From positions 1 through 41,474 of IMG/VR virus record IMGVR_UViG_3300021085_000075: DNA of 41,474 nt. The stretch is one strand, 5' to 3'. Position numbers and translations under genes: made by a program. The first letter of the stretch is position 1. Each line of letters opens with the position of its first letter. This DNA comes from a virus. The notes below the pieces were generated by a model, which did no database searches, was not told where the DNA came from, and saw nothing but the letters and a program-made list of their open reading frames with translations. Below are positions 6,046-41,450 of this stretch, piece after piece.

Positions 6046-6056
<11 letters not shown>
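5046..6056 (-). CDS. Glycine-rich tail adhesin / receptor-binding protein
   Basis: A 336-residue protein. The N-terminus ([25 protein letters not shown]) matches the short attachment module seen at the start of many marine phage fibre proteins. The middle and C-terminal parts carry glycine-rich loops ([31 protein letters not shown]), like polyglycine-helix adhesins of the gp38 type in T-even phages. These loops usually decide host range. The ATG overlaps the end of the S74 fibre gene by 11 bases and has AAAGGA upstream. Probably binds the outer membrane receptor at the end of the collagen-like fibres. Fold call is from composition and motif, not alignment. Confidence 0.75.
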
Positions 6057-7704
<1,648 letters not shown>

Positions 7705-7709
7705 ATATT

Positions 7710-9434
<1,725 letters not shown>

Positions 9435-20551: not shown

Positions 20552-20566
20552 GTTTACAGTGTAAAC
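20552..20566. promoter_or_regulatory. GTTTACAGTGTAAAC palindrome (family 1)
   Basis: Perfect 7+1+7 inverted repeat, located 10 bases after the scaffold stop and upstream of the capsid gene. One of seven copies in the window (also 27387, 34135, 36945, 39907, 40416, 41436). Probably a protein binding site. Confidence 0.75.
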
Positions 20567-23341: not shown

Positions 23342-23363
23342 CGATAGGGTCCTTTATTCGGAC
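23341..23363 (-). promoter_or_regulatory. Phage RNA polymerase promoter, late genes
   Basis: Minus strand core GAATAAAGGACCCTATCGG. It agrees with the promoter at 34297 (AATAAAGGACACTATAG) at nearly all positions. Predicted start 23342, just before the block of portal, scaffold, capsid and tail genes, the place of class III promoters in T7. Confidence 0.75.
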
Positions 23364-23374
23364 AGAGCGTTTAC

Positions 23375-27048: not shown

Positions 27049-27752
27049 AGCTTTACCTCGTTTGTTGATATGTCAAATTCATTAGGACGTAGAATACGTG
27101 CCAACCGTGCTTGTGTGATTGCGTCTTCAACTGTGAGACCTTGCTTTAGGAATGCAGCCTCTACAGCCGCCCAAGGGTCTTCACAGTCTAAAGCCTTCTT
27201 GGCTTTTACAGGCCCATAGGTAGGACAACCTTTGTAGTTATCTGTCGTATCGCCTGTGAGGGTTTGCATTAGGAAGTTGTGATCGGCCTCTTGTTCAGTG
27301 ACCTCATAGAACCCTTTGTCAGCACTCCAGTGAGCACCTTTAATTGTCAGAAGGTCCTTATCTTTAGACACAATAACTGAGCCATCGTTTACACTGTAAA
27401 CTCCGATAGCGTCGTCGGCCTCGATGCCTTCGTGTAAGACAGCGTCATAGTTTTCCATGAGGTACTTACGAAGCCATTTAATAAGCATCGGCTTACGCTT
27501 GGTAGCCCTGTTTGCTTTGTAGTCTTCATGCAAAAACTTACGGTAGTTAGCACCACCTGTGAGAAAGATCGTGTAATCTTTGATACCTGACTTATCCAAG
27601 ATGAAGCCTAGCTTATCTTTAAAGATGCCTAGGGCTTCGTCTTCACGGGCATGTATTGTCCAAAGACCATCGCCCCAGTTTATTTCTTTCTCAGCGGCTA
27701 CGGCTGCTTCGTAAACAAGGATGTCACCGTCTAAAAGTATCTTCATCTTCAT
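26976..27752 (-). CDS. 5'-3' exonuclease (T7 gp6-like)
   Basis: A FEN/PIN-like exonuclease, in T7 needed for primer removal and host DNA breakdown. Acidic metal ligands are visible: LLDGDILVYEAA at the start, GIEADDAIGVYS and SKDKDLLTI, and a later GDTTDNYKGCP. About 258 residues. I choose ATG 27752 (GGAG nine bases upstream). ATG at 27758 or 27746 and a longer form from 27782 are alternatives. It overlaps the small membrane gene upstream and contains a family 1 palindrome (27387). Confidence 0.92.
   Translation of the reverse strand: MKMKILLDGDILVYEAAVAAEKEINWGDGLWTIHAREDEALGIFKDKLGFILDKSGIKDYTIFLTGGANYRKFLHEDYKANRATKRKPMLIKWLRKYLMENYDAVLHEGIEADDAIGVYSVNDGSVIVSKDKDLLTIKGAHWSADKGFYEVTEQEADHNFLMQTLTGDTTDNYKGCPTYGPVKAKKALDCEDPWAAVEAAFLKQGLTVEDAITQARLARILRPNEFDISTNEVKLWTPKTQSTNPNIIQTVALSALST
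27387..27401. promoter_or_regulatory. GTTTACACTGTAAAC palindrome (family 1), inside the exonuclease gene
   Basis: Perfect 7+1+7 inverted repeat, coding in the exonuclease frame. A copy inside a gene is unexpected unless the site is bound or is under selection there. Compare 20552, 34135, 36945, 39907, 40416 and 41436. Confidence 0.65.
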
Positions 27753-30856: not shown

Positions 30857-30870
30857 TTGCACATGTGCAA
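30857..30870. promoter_or_regulatory. TTGCACATGTGCAA palindrome (family 2)
   Basis: Perfect 14-base palindrome, 27 bases upstream of the DNA polymerase gene. Related sites: 33620, 34321, 36923, 36999, 39077, 39986, 41385. This is the most symmetric copy. Confidence 0.65.
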
Positions 30871-33540: not shown

Positions 33541-34114
33541 CGGGTTGCTTTACGTCGCTTTCTGAAAACTCATAACCTTCCTCTTCCTCGAACTTGAAGC
33601 TGCCTAAGCCGCCTGCTCCTTGCACTAGTGAGACTAGTTGAACAGCCGTTAGTCGTAGAGACACACCAGCACCAGCAATCGCTGTGTAGTAAGGGATAGC
33701 CTCATACGCAACTTTGACTGTGGAGCCGTTGCCTACGTCTACTTCTTCAACAATGGGCTTACCTTTAGCATCAAATACTGCTGGTTTCTTTTCCATTGTG
33801 CCGCGTCGAGTTTTGATTACAGCTTTCTGTTTAAAGTTAAATTCAACCTCGCCAGTTTCATTACCCTGCTCATCGTAAACATCTGTGTACGGAGGGTTGC
33901 CTGACTTAATTGAGCCCTTCTTAGTGGGGTTCTCTTTCTTCGCCATATCAAGGCTCTCTGACATAACCTGATTAATATAATCGGTGGTTGCGTCAGCTTG
34001 GTCCTTGGGAAGTCGAAGCTTAATAGAGTAAACTCCATCAGCATCAAATTTCGTATCGGGACGAAAGAGTTTAGCCCAAAGTGCTGAGCCTTTAGGTGTT
34101 TGTCGTACTGCCAT
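33482..34114 (-). CDS. Single-stranded DNA-binding protein (T7 gp2.5-like)
   Basis: Coats single strands and contacts polymerase and helicase by its acidic tail. 210 residues, OB-fold region in the N-terminal 170 and C-terminal DEIFTEDDNTEVTTDNGDF ending in an aromatic residue as in gp2.5. CGAGG precedes the ATG. It starts 34 bases after a small 41-residue gene. A family 2 palindrome lies in its coding region (33620). Confidence 0.93.
   Translation of the reverse strand: MAVRQTPKGSALWAKLFRPDTKFDADGVYSIKLRLPKDQADATTDYINQVMSESLDMAKKENPTKKGSIKSGNPPYTDVYDEQGNETGEVEFNFKQKAVIKTRRGTMEKKPAVFDAKGKPIVEEVDVGNGSTVKVAYEAIPYYTAIAGAGVSLRLTAVQLVSLVQGAGGLGSFKFEEEEGYEFSESDVKQPDEIFTEDDNTEVTTDNGDF
33620..33633. 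promoter_or_regulatory. TTGCACTAGTGAGA site (family 2), inside the SSB gene
   Basis: Exactly the same 14 bases as the sites at 39986 and (on the minus strand) 41385, but in coding sequence (frame of SSB). An exact 14-base match makes chance less likely. Confidence 0.6.
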
Positions 34115-34134: not shown

Positions 34135-34149
34135 GTTTACAGTGTAAAC
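34135..34149. promoter_or_regulatory. GTTTACAGTGTAAAC palindrome (family 1)
   Basis: Perfect 7+1+7 inverted repeat in the 34-base gap between the 41-residue gene and SSB. Identical to the site at 20552. Confidence 0.75.
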
Positions 34150-34296: not shown

Positions 34297-34319
34297 GACT
34301 ATAGTGTCCTTTATTGTAC
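34297..34319 (-). promoter_or_regulatory. Phage RNA polymerase promoter, replication genes
   Basis: Minus strand: AATAAAGGACACTATAGTC. Core AGGACACTATAG is close to SP6 (GTGACACTATAG) and T7 (CGACTCACTATAG) promoters. Predicted start 34299. It lies between the RNA polymerase gene and the small gene. A family 2 site abuts its upstream edge at 34321. Confidence 0.8.
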
Positions 34320-34320
34320 T

Positions 34321-34334
34321 CTCACTTGTGCAAG
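34321..34334. promoter_or_regulatory. Family 2 site abutting the promoter
   Basis: Plus strand CTCACTTGTGCAAG; minus strand CTTGCACAAGTGAG. It is one base upstream of the phage promoter, so a bound protein would touch the polymerase. Confidence 0.7.
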
Positions 34335-34347
34335 TAGTTATAGAAAC

Positions 34348-36801
34348 CTAACTGAAGAAAAACTCACTCTTCAGTACGCCTCTTATGTCTAGGCTCCCAC
34401 GCTTAGGAGGCTCAGGTACGTCATCTAAAACCTCTAAAGCTGCTTGCCTAAATTTCTCCAAGGGATCGTTTGACTCATACATTTCTACAAAAGCTTCACG
34501 CAGGGCATCAAATAAGATGTCAGTGCAATTCCGGCCATCACCTAGCTGTCCGGCGTGTACTGCATAACTGTCATGGATCATGCAGAAATCAGACAAGCCT
34601 TGTTGGCGACATATGTTGATCGTTTTAGTCATTGCCGCAGCATCTAGGCTGTGAATGAAATTTGGAGAGCTACCATTCACGCTACGGCGTTTATCTATTG
34701 TTCCTTCCTTTGGTTCTCTGAATTGTGGCTTGATTAAAGTACCATCAATGTGGGTGTTGATGCGTTTACTGGTCACCTGCTCATAAAACTGAGTGACGTA
34801 AGCGCCTGATGGTGAAGTCCAAGACGTAGGCAGTCCCTCTTTGCTCAGAAGACCACTCACGCCTTGTATCCAATTCATAACTTCACGGGCTGAGACCACC
34901 ACTTCGCTGATCGCTTCCCATAAAATATGAGCTAGGTAGTTAGATGCTTCAAAGTACTTACCCTCAAAAAGATCGGGCTTTCCGGCTGCTAGTTGATCGT
35001 GAATGTATTCCTCGATGTAGCCACGGCAGCTAAACATTTTGCCCCCGTAGGGTACCACCATGACCGGACGCTTGCAGGTTTTCCTAGTTACTCCGAAGTC
35101 TAGCCAAAGCTGCGCCATCCTATCATCTTTGCGGCTCTCAAGAACCTCCAGACAAACATCAGCTACCTCTTGGTAAATATCATTAGGACGTGCGCTGGGC
35201 ATAAGGTTAGTAGCCGCACCACCACGCTCGTCACGTGCAAGGGCACTAAGGTGTTGGATACCGTTGTTACAGCCGTCAAGGGCAATAGGCTGGCGTGAAA
35301 GGTAAGAAGTCCCTTCCTCTTTGTAACCCTTCCACTCAAAACAGAATGCCAAGAACTGCCAAGGCTTATCTGTTTGGGTCCAAAGGGTGTTGGTCAAAGG
35401 GTCAGTAGCACAAGCGACAATCTTATCAGTATTTGCCTCAGACCATTCATAACGCTCTAGCAGCGTGACCTTATCGTTCCCAAAGGTGTTGGCACCCTGT
35501 ACGCCCAACCAAAAGGCACCTCGGTCACCTAAAGGACGCCCCTGAGAGAAGTGTAACAACGATTTAGTGGGGTCACTGCCTTGAGGGCTAAGAAAGGTAC
35601 TACAGACATATTTTCTGAAGCGGAAATCATTTTGATAAACAAAGTAAAAGTCGTCCTCCTGAGAAAACTGTTCAGCCACCTTTAGGGTACGCTCGGTGGC
35701 AATACGTTTAGACAGGGCACGTGCATTGAATTGGTACACACGTGTTGCAGCCTTTTTCCAATCCTTAAAACGCAACTGATCAGCCTCGCCCAGCGCTTTG
35801 GTATCGACATCAGGGCTAAAGGGAAAAGGAGGAACAGGGTTATCGTATTTAGACGGTAAACCAGCCCATGACTGGCCGCTGTCCCAGCAATGCCTCATCA
35901 CTTCCAAAACTTCTTTGTTCACTGCAAACTTAGTACCCTGAAGAGTGTTAACCGCTGAATATTCTTCAGGCATTGGGTAATACTTCATGTCCTGAAAGTA
36001 ATTCAGGTTAGAAGTCTTGATCATGGGTACTGAAAACAATTCTGGGGTGTAGTATCCACCATTAACAGGCGTGGTCCAATCCTTAGGACGTACCAAGCAA
36101 GGCATGTAGGAAGTGTTAAGGTTTTCACCCCGTTCGTTTACCTGCTTGATCCAGTCCAAAGTTGTTTCGGTAGCACGTACAAACATCACTGTTTTGTTGC
36201 GACCCATAGAGTGCTTTTCAACTTTGATTAACCCTGTGTACTGAATAACAAGATCAATAAGCTTAACACCTACCGACATCTTTTCCTGCTTAGTCCAAGC
36301 GTTTGCCATAGTGAGCTCAAGACGCCCAAACTCTCTAAGCATGTTGTAGCGGCGGTAATAACGGTTAGTCGTCTTGCGTGTTACGTTCTTGTATATCTTT
36401 GAAAAGACAAACCCATCTTGCTCTTTCATAAATTCTAATTTGAATTGATCCTCAAGGGCACTCGCCAAGCCCATTGCAAGACGTGTCAAAGTTGTCGTTG
36501 TCGATACACTGTCCACGCACTTCTTAAGTGCAATGTAAGCTGCAATCTCTGGGTCAAACTTGTTCAGAGTTACAGCAGAGTAAGCAGCCTTAGTCGTGGC
36601 ACCTGATAGGGCTGTAGTTACGAAATCAGTAATAGCCTGAGCTACATCATCCACAGACTTCTTAAGTAATATTACACCATAAGCAGTGTTGCTTTCGGCT
36701 TGGCTCTGCAAGCTTTTGTTCACGTTCTTTCTGTAAGCTTCTACACCTAGCTGGTGCATCTGTAGTTCAAGCTGTCTCTGTTTCTCCAAGAGGTCAGTCA
36801 T
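34348..36801 (-). CDS. Single-subunit phage RNA polymerase (T7 gp1-like)
   Basis: Transcribes middle and late genes. 817 residues (T7: 883). Catalytic motifs visible: LDGCNNGIQHLSAL (first Asp), KRPVMVVPYGGKMFSCRGY (Lys, Tyr, Gly), SPNFIHSLDAAAMTK and FCMIHDSYAVHAG (second Asp), with C-terminus SEFFFS ending in aromatic residues as in T7 (FAFA). AAGGAT lies eight bases upstream of the ATG. The leader at 36802-37139 carries a phage promoter and three or four palindromes, implying tight control. Confidence 0.97.
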   Translation of the reverse strand: MTDLLEKQRQLELQMHQLGVEAYRKNVNKSLQSQAESNTAYGVILLKKSVDDVAQAITDFVTTALSGATTKAAYSAVTLNKFDPEIAAYIALKKCVDSVSTTTTLTRLAMGLASALEDQFKLEFMKEQDGFVFSKIYKNVTRKTTNRYYRRYNMLREFGRLELTMANAWTKQEKMSVGVKLIDLVIQYTGLIKVEKHSMGRNKTVMFVRATETTLDWIKQVNERGENLNTSYMPCLVRPKDWTTPVNGGYYTPELFSVPMIKTSNLNYFQDMKYYPMPEEYSAVNTLQGTKFAVNKEVLEVMRHCWDSGQSWAGLPSKYDNPVPPFPFSPDVDTKALGEADQLRFKDWKKAATRVYQFNARALSKRIATERTLKVAEQFSQEDDFYFVYQNDFRFRKYVCSTFLSPQGSDPTKSLLHFSQGRPLGDRGAFWLGVQGANTFGNDKVTLLERYEWSEANTDKIVACATDPLTNTLWTQTDKPWQFLAFCFEWKGYKEEGTSYLSRQPIALDGCNNGIQHLSALARDERGGAATNLMPSARPNDIYQEVADVCLEVLESRKDDRMAQLWLDFGVTRKTCKRPVMVVPYGGKMFSCRGYIEEYIHDQLAAGKPDLFEGKYFEASNYLAHILWEAISEVVVSAREVMNWIQGVSGLLSKEGLPTSWTSPSGAYVTQFYEQVTSKRINTHIDGTLIKPQFREPKEGTIDKRRSVNGSSPNFIHSLDAAAMTKTINICRQQGLSDFCMIHDSYAVHAGQLGDGRNCTDILFDALREAFVEMYESNDPLEKFRQAALEVLDDVPEPPKRGSLDIRGVLKSEFFFS

Positions 36802-36848
36802 GTGATGTTATCCTTAAGGTTACTATAGGTATGTTTGGGGGACCTAGG

Positions 36849-36870
36849 GCGATAGTGGCATTTATTGGAC
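36849..36870 (-). promoter_or_regulatory. Phage RNA polymerase promoter before its own gene
   Basis: Minus strand: CCAATAAATGCCACTATCGC. It matches the promoters at 34297 and 23341 and the left-end one. Predicted start 36850, about 49 bases before the polymerase ATG, giving self-amplifying transcription. Two palindromes lie 50-90 bases upstream (36923, 36945). Confidence 0.7.
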
Positions 36871-36922
36871 ACCACCGCCTACGCCACCACAGCCTGAGGT
36901 GTGGCGCGAAACCTGAAATCTA

Positions 36923-36936
36923 TTGCACATGTGAGA
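36923..36936. promoter_or_regulatory. Family 2 site in the RNA polymerase leader
   Basis: TTGCACATGTGAGA. It lies eight bases from a family 1 palindrome at 36945, the closest pair of both families in the window. Confidence 0.7.
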
Positions 36937-36944
36937 ATGACTGA

Positions 36945-36959
36945 GTTTACAATGTAAAC
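36945..36959. promoter_or_regulatory. GTTTACAATGTAAAC palindrome (family 1)
   Basis: 7+1+7 inverted repeat (central base A) in the polymerase leader. Confidence 0.75.
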
Positions 36960-36998
36960 CCTAGGAGTTGCCATATAAATAAGGGATTTGGCGGACAT

Positions 36999-37012
36999 TT
37001 GCACAAGTGATA
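36999..37012. promoter_or_regulatory. Family 2 site near the tRNA
   Basis: TTGCACAAGTGATA, further upstream in the polymerase leader. Differs from the consensus at the last three bases. Confidence 0.55.
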
Positions 37013-37067
37013 GGAGGTAGCAGGACATTTTAAGTCTCCCGTAGGGATGTAGGCGTTAACGTGTTTA

Positions 37068-37097
37068 GACGGTAAATCAATTAAAATATCTACCGTC
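37068..37097. repeat. Inverted repeat GACGGTA ... TACCGTC
   Basis: 7-base arms with a 16-base AT-rich middle, just after the tRNA on the minus strand. No T run, so not a clear terminator. Could be an arm-type integrase or excisionase site near the attachment site. Confidence 0.5.
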
Positions 37098-37139
37098 AAG
37101 TCTACTTCACCAAAGCTGGAAAAGCGTTTGTTTTCATAA

Positions 37140-37223
37140 TGGTACCCGTGGCCGGACTCGAACCGGCACGCCGCAAGGCCACAGATTTTAAGTCTGCTAT
37201 GTCTACCATTCCATCACACGGGC
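37140..37223 (-). tRNA. tRNA-Leu (anticodon UAA), full length, likely attachment site
   Basis: An 84-base tRNA on the minus strand. Acceptor GCCCGTG pairs with CACGGGT (G-U end pair), then A and encoded CCA. D arm GATGGAATGGTAGACAT, anticodon stem GCAGA/TCTGT, loop CTTAAAA with anticodon UAA (37188-37190), long variable arm GGCCTTGCGGCGT as in class II tRNAs, T arm GCCGG-TTCGAGT-CCGGC. All arms can fold, so it may be a working tRNA. Next to the integrase gene, its 3' half is the likely attP core, as in other T7-like phages that insert into tRNA genes. The sequence looks like alphaproteobacterial tRNA-Leu(UAA), from memory of the family. Confidence 0.93.
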
Positions 37224-37289
37224 AAGGCCACTGAAGGCCACTAGCGCCACAGCTTACGCCACAGGCTAGATAGGCCGTAGATATACTCT

Positions 37290-38288
37290 CTACTGTTCCA
37301 AAGAAGCAATCGCATTTTGCGAGTTTAGAGGGGAAATCTTAGCATACTTCAAAGTGGTCTGGATCGTCTTGTGACCCATCAGTGCTTGGACCACCTGTAG
37401 GGGTGCCCCTTTTTGAACTAGGCGGGACGCAAATGTATGCCTGAGCGTATGCCAAACAACGTCCTCGCCTAGTCCTGAAAGTCCCCTGACACGCTCCCAC
37501 CCACTTCTCCACCACGATCCGCGGGGGAATAGGTACTGAGGCTGTGGACTATCGCTAAGAGCTCGACACCTTCGAGCAATCACAGCCTTAGCCCTCTTGG
37601 TCAGGGGGATGGATCGCCAGTCGTGGTTTTTGCCATCAACTAGTAACCCACCGTCTCGCATGCTGTCAGTTTTCAACGCATGTAATTCTCCCGCACGGAT
37701 ACCAGTGTCCACGGCAATTACAATAGCATCCATGAGGTCATTATAACCTAAATATTCAGCTTTGTTGATTATCGCAGATACTTCATCTTCAGTGAGCCAG
37801 CGCATGCGCCATTTAGTTTCCTGAAGCCGTCGAAGTTTAGGTTTTTTATCAATCTTATCGTACTCCAAAGAAACGGTAAGCATCTTGGATAATGCCGCTA
37901 AGTGTCGATTGATTGTGGCATTAGATTTGGAGAGGTTTTTGAGCTCAAGAATATACTCGTCTACCATCTCGGTTGAAATATCTTTCACAGGCATTTTTGA
38001 ACCAAAGAATTTAAGAGCTCTGTTCATGTTATATACCATCTTGGTTTCAGAACGGGAGCCACGCCAAGCAACCTGATAAGTGCGGTCACCAGCGTCTTTT
38101 AGGGTCCAAGTCTGTGTCGAGGGTAATTTAGATGATAGGGTGGGTAAGTCTTTACCTAAGACAAGCGCTTCACGTGCCTGCTCTTCCCAAATCAAAGCGT
38201 CAACTTTGGTATCAAAACTCCTGCGAACCCGTGTACCATTACTAGAGATGTAGGCTTGGTACTTTGATCCACGTTTTGATACGGTCAT
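37290..38288 (-). CDS. Tyrosine recombinase integrase
   Basis: Inserts and excises the phage genome at a tRNA gene. 332 residues, with N-terminal SAM-like core-binding domain (about 65-150) and catalytic domain from 165. Catalytic residues visible: DTGIRAGEL (Arg198), WHTLRHTF (His280, Arg283), MGHKTIQTTLKYA (His306, Tyr315 nucleophile). It sits four bases after the MarR-like gene and 66 bases before the tRNA. The minus-strand start region AATAAATGACCGTATC resembles the phage promoter core but is coding, so this is probably chance. Confidence 0.95.
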   Translation of the reverse strand: MTVSKRGSKYQAYISSNGTRVRRSFDTKVDALIWEEQAREALVLGKDLPTLSSKLPSTQTWTLKDAGDRTYQVAWRGSRSETKMVYNMNRALKFFGSKMPVKDISTEMVDEYILELKNLSKSNATINRHLAALSKMLTVSLEYDKIDKKPKLRRLQETKWRMRWLTEDEVSAIINKAEYLGYNDLMDAIVIAVDTGIRAGELHALKTDSMRDGGLLVDGKNHDWRSIPLTKRAKAVIARRCRALSDSPQPQYLFPRGSWWRSGWERVRGLSGLGEDVVWHTLRHTFASRLVQKGAPLQVVQALMGHKTIQTTLKYAKISPLNSQNAIASLEQ

Positions 38289-38292
38289 TTAT

Positions 38293-38622
38293 TTATTCAA
38301 GAAGCGTACTCACATTGTGAAACAACTTCTTGCCTCTGTTGGTTAAAAGAAGAACTTTTCGGTTACCATTAACCACGTCTCTGGTGATGGTAATTAAGGC
38401 CATGCCTGAATCGCCTTGCCGTCTTGTATCAGACAGCATTTTGCAATGGCGGGAGGCGGAAGCCATAGTAATATGCAGCTTGTCCACAATGTCGGAAATA
38501 ATGAGGGGTTCTGCGTTGGTGGATTCGTTGTAGCCGATGGCCATGAACACCTGAACGGTGGTCACACGAATACTGTCGTCATAATGCTTAAATTGATCTA
38601 AAATAAGGTTAAGATTTCTCAT
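38293..38622 (-). CDS. Winged-helix transcription regulator, MarR-like
   Basis: 109 residues with a winged helix: TTVQVFMAIGYNES, then LIISDIVDKLHITMASASRHCKML (recognition helix ASASRHCKML), then the wing ALITITRDVVNGNRKVLLLTNRGKKL. MarR-type proteins bind palindromes as dimers, which fits the two palindrome families. Four bases before the integrase gene, so probably co-transcribed. Candidate repressor of lysis genes. Weak ribosome site. No ligand site seen. Confidence 0.8.
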   Translation of the reverse strand: MRNLNLILDQFKHYDDSIRVTTVQVFMAIGYNESTNAEPLIISDIVDKLHITMASASRHCKMLSDTRRQGDSGMALITITRDVVNGNRKVLLLTNRGKKLFHNVSTLLE

Positions 38623-38667
38623 TCTTACTAATTACACTGGCACAAAGCCAAAGTCTCCCAAAAGTTA

Positions 38668-38683
38668 AGTCGAACCCTCGACT
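38668..38683. repeat. Inverted repeat AGTCGA-ACCC-TCGACT
   Basis: 6-base perfect arms with a 4-base middle, in the 209-base gap between the two regulator genes. May be an operator or a hairpin. A TATGAT (-10-like) follows on the plus strand at 38692-38697, without a good -35. Confidence 0.45.
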
Positions 38684-38738
38684 GATCCCACTATGATACA
38701 CAAAAGAAGGATTCAAGGACGAAGTTTCGAGTGTTGAA

Positions 38739-38816
38739 ATGAATATTTCACAGAATTTGGTTTTTATAAACATCTGCATTGCCTGTATTGTATTGATTAT
38801 TGGCGGAATAGTATAG
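38739..38816 (+). CDS. Possible plus-strand membrane microprotein, 25 residues
   Basis: ATG at 38739, TAG at 38814. Begins with MNISQNLVFINIC and ends in IIGGIV: an almost fully hydrophobic single membrane segment. The start codon lies in an inverted repeat TGAAAT-GAAT-ATTTCA (38735-38750), which could hide it, and a plus-strand terminator follows eight bases later. This is the only plus-strand gene candidate. Size and make-up recall type I toxins or superinfection exclusion peptides. The ribosome site is weak and there is no clear promoter, so the gene is uncertain. A 56-codon frame on the minus strand overlaps. Confidence 0.35.
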   Translation: MNISQNLVFINICIACIVLIIGGIV

Positions 38817-38823
38817 GATTGAA

Positions 38824-38852
38824 GAGGGGGCCTAAGCCCACTCCCCTTTTTT
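38824..38852 (+). terminator. Plus-strand rho-independent terminator
   Basis: GGGGGC-CTAA-GCCC stem with outer GG/CC pairs, followed by CTCCCC and six T on the plus strand. On the minus strand the hairpin overlaps the stop of the winged-helix gene (38832) but has no T run. It therefore points to a transcript coming from the left on the plus strand. Confidence 0.65.
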
Positions 38853-39056
38853 AATGTAAGTGTAGCGAACATAGCGCTGCCCAGTGACTGGGTGCTTTTT
38901 GCTAACTGAAGTAATTTCATGGCCCAATTCCCGTAAGTCGCGAATGCGTCGGGTAAGGCTTGATATGCTGTATTCAATAAGTGCTTCGCGGACTGTAATT
39001 GTAGAAGTCTGCTTGAAGTGGTGAAGTAGTGTTTGAACTTGTGTACTAGTAGCCAT
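38832..39056 (-). CDS. Small winged-helix protein (HTH_39-like)
   Basis: 74 residues: TQVQTLLHHFKQTSTITVREALIEYSISSLTRRIRDLRELGHEI then SKKHPVTGQRYVRYTYIKKGEWA. Matches the phage winged-helix type in which a LTRRIRDLRELGH recognition helix is followed by a basic wing. ATG 39056 (MATSTQ) is chosen over 39131; AGAAAG is the ribosome site. A family 2 site lies 21 bases upstream (39077), so it may bind its own promoter. Could be a repressor or an Xis-like protein. Confidence 0.82.
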   Translation of the reverse strand: MATSTQVQTLLHHFKQTSTITVREALIEYSISSLTRRIRDLRELGHEITSVSKKHPVTGQRYVRYTYIKKGEWA

Positions 39057-39076
39057 GTTGGTTTCTTTCTGTTTAT

Positions 39077-39090
39077 TTGCATTAGTGCAA
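39077..39090. promoter_or_regulatory. Family 2 site upstream of the winged-helix gene
   Basis: TTGCATTAGTGCAA, with perfect TTGCA/TGCAA arms. It is 20 bases before the start of the winged-helix gene, a natural place for auto-regulation. Confidence 0.65.
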
Positions 39091-39091
39091 G

Positions 39092-39259
39092 TTAAAAAGG
39101 CGGTTCTTCGCCGTTGTATGAGGGTTTCCACGCTACGTAACTTTGTGGCTCCTCGGTTTCGTCGTCGGGGTAATCTTTGGAAGGCACTGGGCCGAGGAAA
39201 TCTGATAGGAAGTCCCTAAGCTCCCAGCCCATGCCATCGGTATCTTTAGGCAATGCCAT
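39092..39259 (-). CDS. Hypothetical 55-residue acidic protein
   Basis: Begins MALPKDTDGMGWELRDF and ends in YNGEEPPF. Not recognised. ATG at 39259 overlaps the upstream gene stop by 14 bases, so coupling is likely. Another start 20 codons upstream is less likely. The ending next to the family 2 site at 39077 leaves only one base between. Confidence 0.6.
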   Translation of the reverse strand: MALPKDTDGMGWELRDFLSDFLGPVPSKDYPDDETEEPQSYVAWKPSYNGEEPPF

Positions 39260-39890
39260 GACGTACACGCCAATGGGTCCAAGTAACGGCCTGAACCTGC
39301 ATAGGCAGAATATCGACACCCTCTACTTTGGAGATTATGCCAGCCGCTTCACGGTAAGCCGCGGCAATGTGGTGGTACTCTTTGTCGCCCATTGATTTAG
39401 ACTTGAGGGCAACACGGGTACCGTAAAAGATATTACGGGCATGACCATCAACACAGACAGCGTGGTGATTATTAGGATTGTTGATACACTCAAAGAAAGC
39501 TTTGGTCTTGTTACCGTTGAGTATTTTATTAATTTTATCAGAGCCTAAGACGCCTTCGGTCAGTATTCTCCAAGCTTTTTCACGGTTTAATGGGTAAGCA
39601 CTAAGACGCACCTGAGTATAGTCCCAATCCTCTTCACCGAGTGTAGACTTGTAGGCCTGTAGAAAAGTCTCAGCGTCTTTAACATTGCGCTCCCAGCGGA
39701 CATTAGGTGATAGGGCAGCAATCACGCCTTGCACTAGGTCATTACGTACATTGACCAGATCGCCAATACGTGAGGATATGTCATTGGCTGTTTGGTACCA
39801 CGTTTTGCCTGCAATATGTTCTTCAGGTGAAGCGCTGAACCAACAACCTACAATGTTGAATGGGTTGTTTTCATAAACTTTCTTAGTCAT
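39246..39890 (-). CDS. Conserved phage protein of unknown function (214 residues)
   Basis: A full-length soluble protein: NPFNIVGCWFSASPEEH, then LVQGVIAALSPNVRWERNVKDAE, then KTKAFFECINNPNNHHAVCVDGHARNIFYGTR and QVQAVTWTHWR at the end. I recall similar proteins in several phage and plasmid groups, without known function. The VCVDGHA ... VQAVTWxxWR pattern with an internal helix-hairpin-like LNGNKTKAF brings DNA glycosylase-type folds to mind, but I cannot show it. AAGGA lies eight bases before the ATG. Family 1 and family 2 palindromes lie 17 and 96 bases upstream. Confidence 0.8.
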   Translation of the reverse strand: MTKKVYENNPFNIVGCWFSASPEEHIAGKTWYQTANDISSRIGDLVNVRNDLVQGVIAALSPNVRWERNVKDAETFLQAYKSTLGEEDWDYTQVRLSAYPLNREKAWRILTEGVLGSDKINKILNGNKTKAFFECINNPNNHHAVCVDGHARNIFYGTRVALKSKSMGDKEYHHIAAAYREAAGIISKVEGVDILPMQVQAVTWTHWRVRHGIA

Positions 39891-39906: not shown

Positions 39907-39921
39907 GTTTACACTGTAAAC
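39907..39921. promoter_or_regulatory. GTTTACACTGTAAAC palindrome (family 1)
   Basis: Perfect 7+1+7 repeat, 17 bases before the ATG of the 214-residue protein, where it would cover a promoter or ribosome site. Confidence 0.75.
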
Positions 39922-39985: not shown

Positions 39986-39999
39986 TTGCACTAGTGAGA
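39986..39999. promoter_or_regulatory. TTGCACTAGTGAGA site (family 2)
   Basis: Upstream of the 214-residue gene and eight bases after the stop of the next gene. Exact copy of the sites at 33620 and 41385. Confidence 0.7.
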
Positions 40000-40415: not shown

Positions 40416-40430
40416 GTTTACACTGTAAAC
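40416..40430. promoter_or_regulatory. GTTTACACTGTAAAC palindrome (family 1)
   Basis: Perfect 7+1+7 repeat overlapping the stop codon of the 34-residue gene and just upstream (in transcription sense) of the terminator. Confidence 0.7.
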
Positions 40431-41382: not shown

Positions 41383-41411
41383 ATTCTCACTAGTGCAACC
41401 ACCTTTTCCAA
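41383..41411 (-). promoter_or_regulatory. Possible host sigma-70 promoter of the early operon
   Basis: Minus strand TTGGAA (-35), 17 bases, GAGAAT (-10). The family 2 site at 41385-41398 covers the spacer and part of the -10, as a repressor operator would. Hexamers each match 4 of 6. Confidence 0.4.
41385..41398. promoter_or_regulatory. TTGCACTAGTGAGA site (family 2), early operon
   Basis: On the minus strand, same as the sites at 33620 and 39986. It lies upstream of the first early gene. Confidence 0.7.
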
Positions 41412-41435: not shown

Positions 41436-41450
41436 GTTTACACTGTAAAC
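41436..41450. promoter_or_regulatory. GTTTACACTGTAAAC palindrome (family 1), right end
   Basis: Perfect 7+1+7 repeat, 37 bases from the family 2 site at 41385. Together they frame the early control region at the right end. Confidence 0.75.

Follow-up and report, generated by a model that had tools for sequence, protein, structure and literature searches.

The 41,474-base window analysed here, the complete virus record IMGVR_UViG_3300021085_000075, is probably the genome of an uncultured temperate T7-like phage, a virus of marine-type bacteria, in which a MarR-fold protein encoded beside a tyrosine integrase is likely to act as repressor through a genome-wide family of palindromic operators, here called family B, the region 36802-39090 being its integration and immunity module. 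The minus strand carries every main gene of the genome. In the order of transcription, the module and the gene that follows it comprise an HTH_39 winged-helix protein (38832-39056; 74 amino acids; PF14090, E=4.3e-10), the MarR-fold winged-helix protein proposed as the repressor (38293-38622; 109 amino acids; phrog_9665 'transcriptional regulator', E=2e-14), the tyrosine integrase (37290-38288; 332 amino acids; PF00589, E=3.6e-24), a complete transfer RNA gene, tRNA-Leu(TAA) (37140-37223; ARAGORN), the polymerase leader and a single-subunit T7-type RNA polymerase (34348-36801; Pfam RNA_pol PF00940, E=5e-97, and phrog_414), all of them on the minus strand. Profile searches, ARAGORN and fold comparison thus bear out the first-pass annotation, which had placed an integrase, a tRNA-Leu and two winged-helix proteins between the polymerase gene and position 39,090; its statement that the two regulators flank the integrase has to be corrected, as both lie upstream of it.

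No Pfam MarR model matches the 38293-38622 protein, whose sole curated match is phrog_9665. Its AlphaFold model, built from a five-sequence alignment, reached a mean predicted local distance difference test (pLDDT) score of 90.2, and the best fold matches in the PDB are nearly all members of the MarR family, i.e. MepR, MarR, SlyA, AdcR and PefR (E ~5e-4 to 3e-3); as modelled, the protein has a winged-helix core with N- and C-terminal helices of the MarR type. The pelagiphage homologues bear a MarR annotation, and nearly all integrase-bearing T7-like genomes compared have a MarR homologue that adjoins the integrase gene and precedes that of the polymerase, the gene order MarR, integrase, RNA polymerase being kept across nearly all of the temperate ones. 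The MarR-fold protein is 46% identical to its counterpart in G002, a divergent relative whose polymerase shows 66% identity; in the predicted DNA-binding helix both have the segment ASASRHC, and the B sites of the two phages have a CAC/GTG core in common. A MarR-like protein would sit as a dimer on a palindromic operator, and palindromes are present.

The polymerase leader (36802-37139) contains one phage-type promoter, GGTGTCCAATAAATGCCACTATCG, at 36850-36873 on the minus strand, one perfect palindrome, GTTTACAATGTAAAC, at 36945-36959, and two near-palindromes, TTGCACATGTGAGA at 36923-36936 and TTGCACAAGTGATA at 36999-37012, i.e. the promoter (36873-36850) and the three palindromes (36945, 36923 and 36999) of the first-pass annotation were all recovered. 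The two near-palindromes belong to family B, TTGCAC-WW-GTGCAA with degenerate flanks, which has nine sites genome-wide vs 1.07 per shuffle (shuffle maximum, 4), and the perfect palindrome belongs to a second family, A, a 15-base pair (bp) motif, GTTTACANTGTAAAC, with seven perfect copies in the record vs none for a reversed control. Given these counts, the leader palindromes are not the product of chance. A lysogeny module with its operators in the leader, as first proposed, is right in part: a repressor acting on the leader fits, whereas the operators are not confined to it, since it holds only three of the 16 sites of two genome-wide families.

Over the unmasked genome, the palindrome search was swamped by the collagen-like repeats of the tail fibre, and it was therefore repeated on non-coding DNA, where family B emerged unsupervised as the best palindrome found de novo in the window (p=5e-10; none of 40 shuffles equally good). 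The repeats in question, of the GGTCCTACAGGT type, fill the tail-fibre region at 6046-8900 and dominate genome-wide repeat searches. Apart from the two leader sites, sequence motifs place candidate B operators abutting the phage promoter that directly follows the polymerase gene (34320-34333; promoter at 34299-34322, minus strand), upstream of the first early gene (41385-41398), 21 bp before the HTH_39 gene (39077-39090) and, as a perfect copy, 27 bp ahead of the gene of the DNA polymerase (30857-30870). Another, at 39986-39999, lies inside the spacer of a host-type promoter, TTGACA-17-TAGACT (40007-39979; site at 39999-39986). The remaining two are within the gene of the single-stranded DNA-binding protein (33620-33633) and, weaker, after the terminase gene (360-373). 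Family B thus lies at early host-type promoters, in the polymerase leader, at the post-polymerase phage promoter and on the approach to the gene of the DNA polymerase; its most likely function is that of MarR operator.

Palindromes of similar form, though of different sequence, were recovered from other temperate T7-like phages by the same unsupervised search. LUZ100 has seven dispersed sites of the CTATCCAC-N2-GTGGATAG type, RHEph21 has ATCCAC-N2-GTGGAT, G035 has TCCCAC-N2-GTGGGA, G038-G040 have TTGCCA-N2-TGGCAA and Pasto has ten GTCACT-N4-AGTGAC sites; palindromes of the form CAC-N2-GTG are common to LUZ100, RHEph21 and G035. The LUZ100 palindromes at 376-393 and 577-594 occupy the -35/-10 spacers of P1 and P2, the two early host promoters (TTGACA-17-TAAGAT) mapped by experiment, and that at 6689-6706 adjoins the mapped promoter phi2. 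Palindromes or inverted repeats go unmentioned in the LUZ100 paper, which puts MarR binding at phi1 by hypothesis (PMC10134795). Taking the top palindrome family of each of 17 genomes outside the clade of the window, a post-polymerase site was present in ten (2.3 expected, P=7e-6) and leader and post-polymerase sites together in six (0.6 expected, P=1e-5), figures to be read with caution since the compared genomes share ancestry; with one close group counted once, the combination was found in four (0.58 expected, P=2e-3).

Family B might instead consist of promoter elements or sites for a host regulator rather than phage operators, considering that TTGCAC is similar to a -35 box and that palindrome scans can pick up promoters, as in T7, where the top match was the phage's own promoter core. 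We consider this very improbable, because the near-palindromic B sites occur in both orientations, also inside and downstream of genes, and because phage lineages with this layout differ in the bases flanking the sites.

From the genes, their folds and positions, their conservation and the layout shared across phages we infer that the MarR-fold protein binds family B and thereby represses, and that the phage forms lysogens. The protein would dimerise on the B palindromes, with TTGCAC as half-site and a two-base centre. In a lysogen, it would occupy the -35/-10 spacer and so block the early promoters served by host RNA polymerase; the polymerase leader would be blocked too, as would the phage promoter just 3' of the polymerase gene, and with both of these shut the self-amplifying polymerase loop could not start. 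Leak-through would be prevented by the remaining B sites, among them the one ahead of the DNA polymerase gene, while the integrase would act at a phage attachment site (attP) in the tRNA-Leu. Relatives carry the same tRNA-Leu in the same place, and tRNA-Leu(TAA) is the probable attP carrier. Family A would add an overlapping network with a separate reader factor.

Several observations weigh against a MarR-based repressor of lysogeny. Leader sites alone were not enriched once relatives had been collapsed (P=0.11); no significant palindrome family was found by this search in HTVC021P, HTVC201P, CRP118 and G037, and BB8 has none with this layout; and the search can report phage promoters, as described above for T7. 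Searches of bacterial genomes for a prophage relative, and for a host through the bacterial attachment site (attB) in a tRNA, gave no match with the patterns used. Moreover, no stable lysogens of LUZ100 were obtained (PMC10134795), T7-like cyanophages integrate without lysogeny (PMC8776855), and in a 2025 pelagiphage study the early expression of MarR and integrase during lytic infection was read as a take-over of host transcription, not as repression (PMC12753301). Along the lines of these last two studies, the MarR-like protein could be an early take-over regulator, with the integrase giving only transient integration and no true lysogeny. We regard this as unlikely, since sites inside promoter spacers and abutting a phage promoter suit a repressor.

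In addition to the leader copy (36945-36959), which is orthologous and arm-invariant in the relatives G004 and G005, candidate A operators were identified by motif 21 bp before the gene of the single-stranded DNA-binding protein (34135-34149), 17 bp before the DUF7178 gene (39907-39921), in the early region (40416-40430), upstream of the first early gene (41436-41450), within the exonuclease gene (27387-27401) and 135 bp before the major capsid gene (20552-20566). All seven are found at orthologous places in G005, a 96% relative, even where identity in one flank drops to 39% or 59%; no arm has changed in any of them, and two sites have a different centre base. G002 carries ten separate A sites, not counting copies in its terminal repeat. 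The motif is present in every relative with a polymerase identity of at least 66% and in none at 48% or below, i.e. as a network, family A belongs to this clade only. It appears to form a second network that overlaps family B, with several candidate readers.

One candidate is the HTH_39 protein, as a second dedicated lysogeny regulator that reads family A in a two-repressor switch. Besides the MarR-fold protein, it alone is recognisable as a DNA-binding protein common to the window and G002; its gene stands directly upstream of the MarR gene in the A-bearing genomes that cover the region, and only there, but in the replication region of other T7-like phages (e.g. LUZ100, 8740-8934); and the G002 group has an A site immediately upstream of this gene. 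Its relatives, however, do not support this role: homologues 56-61% identical to that of the window occur in T7-like phages without family A, whereas that of G002 is less close (46-52%), and the helix region does not track the sites, reading SSLTRRIRDL in the window vs VCLAKRIQEL in G002 despite an invariant family A, and QSLTKRISEL, nearer to the window, in the phages that lack it. These relatives support neither a co-repressor role of the HTH_39 protein nor its role as A reader, and the two-repressor switch, in line with the two regulators of the first-pass annotation, is a less likely alternative. The first early protein was also rejected as reader, being the least conserved (30%) and without a confident fold (pLDDT 43).

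Another candidate is suggested by the motif itself. At every specified base, all seven A sites match the parS2 consensus of Vibrio cholerae chromosome II, NTTTACANTGTAAAN (PMC7022226), from which ParB2 is known to spread and silence nearby promoters (PMC3688505). Family A could accordingly be a centromere-like site of the ParB2/KorB type, on which a host protein, or an undetected ParB-type protein of the phage, spreads and silences or positions the phage DNA; that the sites are invariant while the phage regulators diverge is as expected for a site read by the host. Nevertheless, a 12-base match to some known motif may be coincidence, no ParB_N domain was found in six A-bearing records, by which a phage-encoded ParB was rejected as reader, and the host signal does not single out Vibrio, the tRNA-Leu being closer to roseobacter sequences (83%) than to those of Vibrio (78%) and the nearest terminase being that of a roseobacter phage. 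Four Vibrio or roseobacter plasmid records (two of them Vibrio), checked for multiple A sites, contained no copy. A centromere-like site is thus a quite unlikely reading of family A, and there is a slimmer chance still that through these sites the chromosome-partition protein (ParB) of the host is brought to the DNA of phage or prophage, where it would serve segregation or add a second level of silencing to that of the MarR network.

The switch of MarR, integrase and polymerase is already published for LUZ100 and, via the citations of that paper, for other T7-like phages. In the LUZ100 scheme, one operon encodes both a MarR-like regulator and an integrase, and the polymerase gene is preceded by a phage promoter with MarR sites on either side (PMC10134795, citing Boeckman 2022), so the system is not undescribed, as had been supposed at first. 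Judging by its sequence, the window has the features of the temperate Autographiviridae of the LUZ100 type, i.e. a MarR-like gene and an integrase upstream of a T7-type polymerase and a phage promoter in the leader. It resembles LUZ100 in its T7-like genome, in the MarR-like gene beside the integrase with a tRNA-Leu adjoining, in the leader promoter and, as found in this analysis, in dispersed palindromes of the CAC-N2-GTG type. In contrast, the operator flanks are CTATCCAC in LUZ100 and TTGCAC in the window, LUZ100 lacks family A and has HTH_39 in the replication region rather than beside MarR, and its polymerase is only 37% identical. What is new is the operator map of the clade, the cross-phage layout including the mapped promoters of LUZ100, and family A, although Boeckman et al. 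2022 may already list some of the operators.

Among other known systems, the pelagiphages HTVC021P and HTVC201P and the Roseobacter CRP phages are likewise marine and have the same order of MarR, integrase and polymerase; unlike the window, HTVC021P, HTVC201P and CRP118 showed no significant palindrome family by this method and no family A. The stoperators of mycobacteriophage L5 and cluster A are similar in that one repressor serves many dispersed sites (PMC9283540, PMC6550527), as a single reader would serve family B. The L5 stoperators are, however, asymmetric, in one orientation and bound by a monomeric repressor to terminate elongation, whereas family B consists of near-palindromes in both orientations with a proposed MarR-fold reader. 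Compared with parS2/ParB2, family A equals the consensus as described, but its copies are dispersed along the 41 kb of a phage genome, no ParB was found in the phage, and a Vibrio host is not established. A concrete operator map, with sites inside the mapped early promoters of LUZ100, makes it testable in a laboratory phage whether and how integrase-bearing T7-like phages stay quiet. An extra layer of control or segregation is suggested by the second palindrome, which is invariant and genome-wide within one clade.

The closest named polymerases are just 35-37% identical to that of the window, i.e. those of LUZ100, Limnohabitans phage YIMV22061 and the roseobacter CRP phages, and the terminase is about 60% identical to that of the CRP phages. 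By tRNA similarity, the host signal is ambiguous and slightly roseobacter-like.

The phage-type promoter motif, about CAATAAAKGACACTATAG, occurs at four places (36873, 34322, 23365 and 487), which are candidate promoters by sequence, all on the minus strand. The motif of the leader promoter is common to the other three and to relatives; the promoter directly 3' of the polymerase gene has its G002 orthologue at 9366, and that downstream of the terminase gene (464-487) has an orthologous position in G002 at 42947, while the fourth lies at 23342-23365. In G002, the equivalent positions carry a promoter motif particular to that phage; one phage-type promoter (6428-6465) is directly abutted by an A site and another, after the polymerase gene (9353-9388), by a B-type site.

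A 49-codon reading frame in the leader (36879-37028, minus strand) spans the A site and one B site, and the divergent G002 has the identical start context, GGGAGACTTAAAATG. It was rejected as a conserved peptide: the codon changes were two synonymous vs nine non-synonymous, and hence there is no sign of selection on the peptide.

Finally, the DUF7178 protein (39246-39890, minus strand), whose gene is preceded by an A site, is 43-44% conserved in G002 and has motifs that we take to be reminiscent of DNA glycosylases of the HhH-GPD type.

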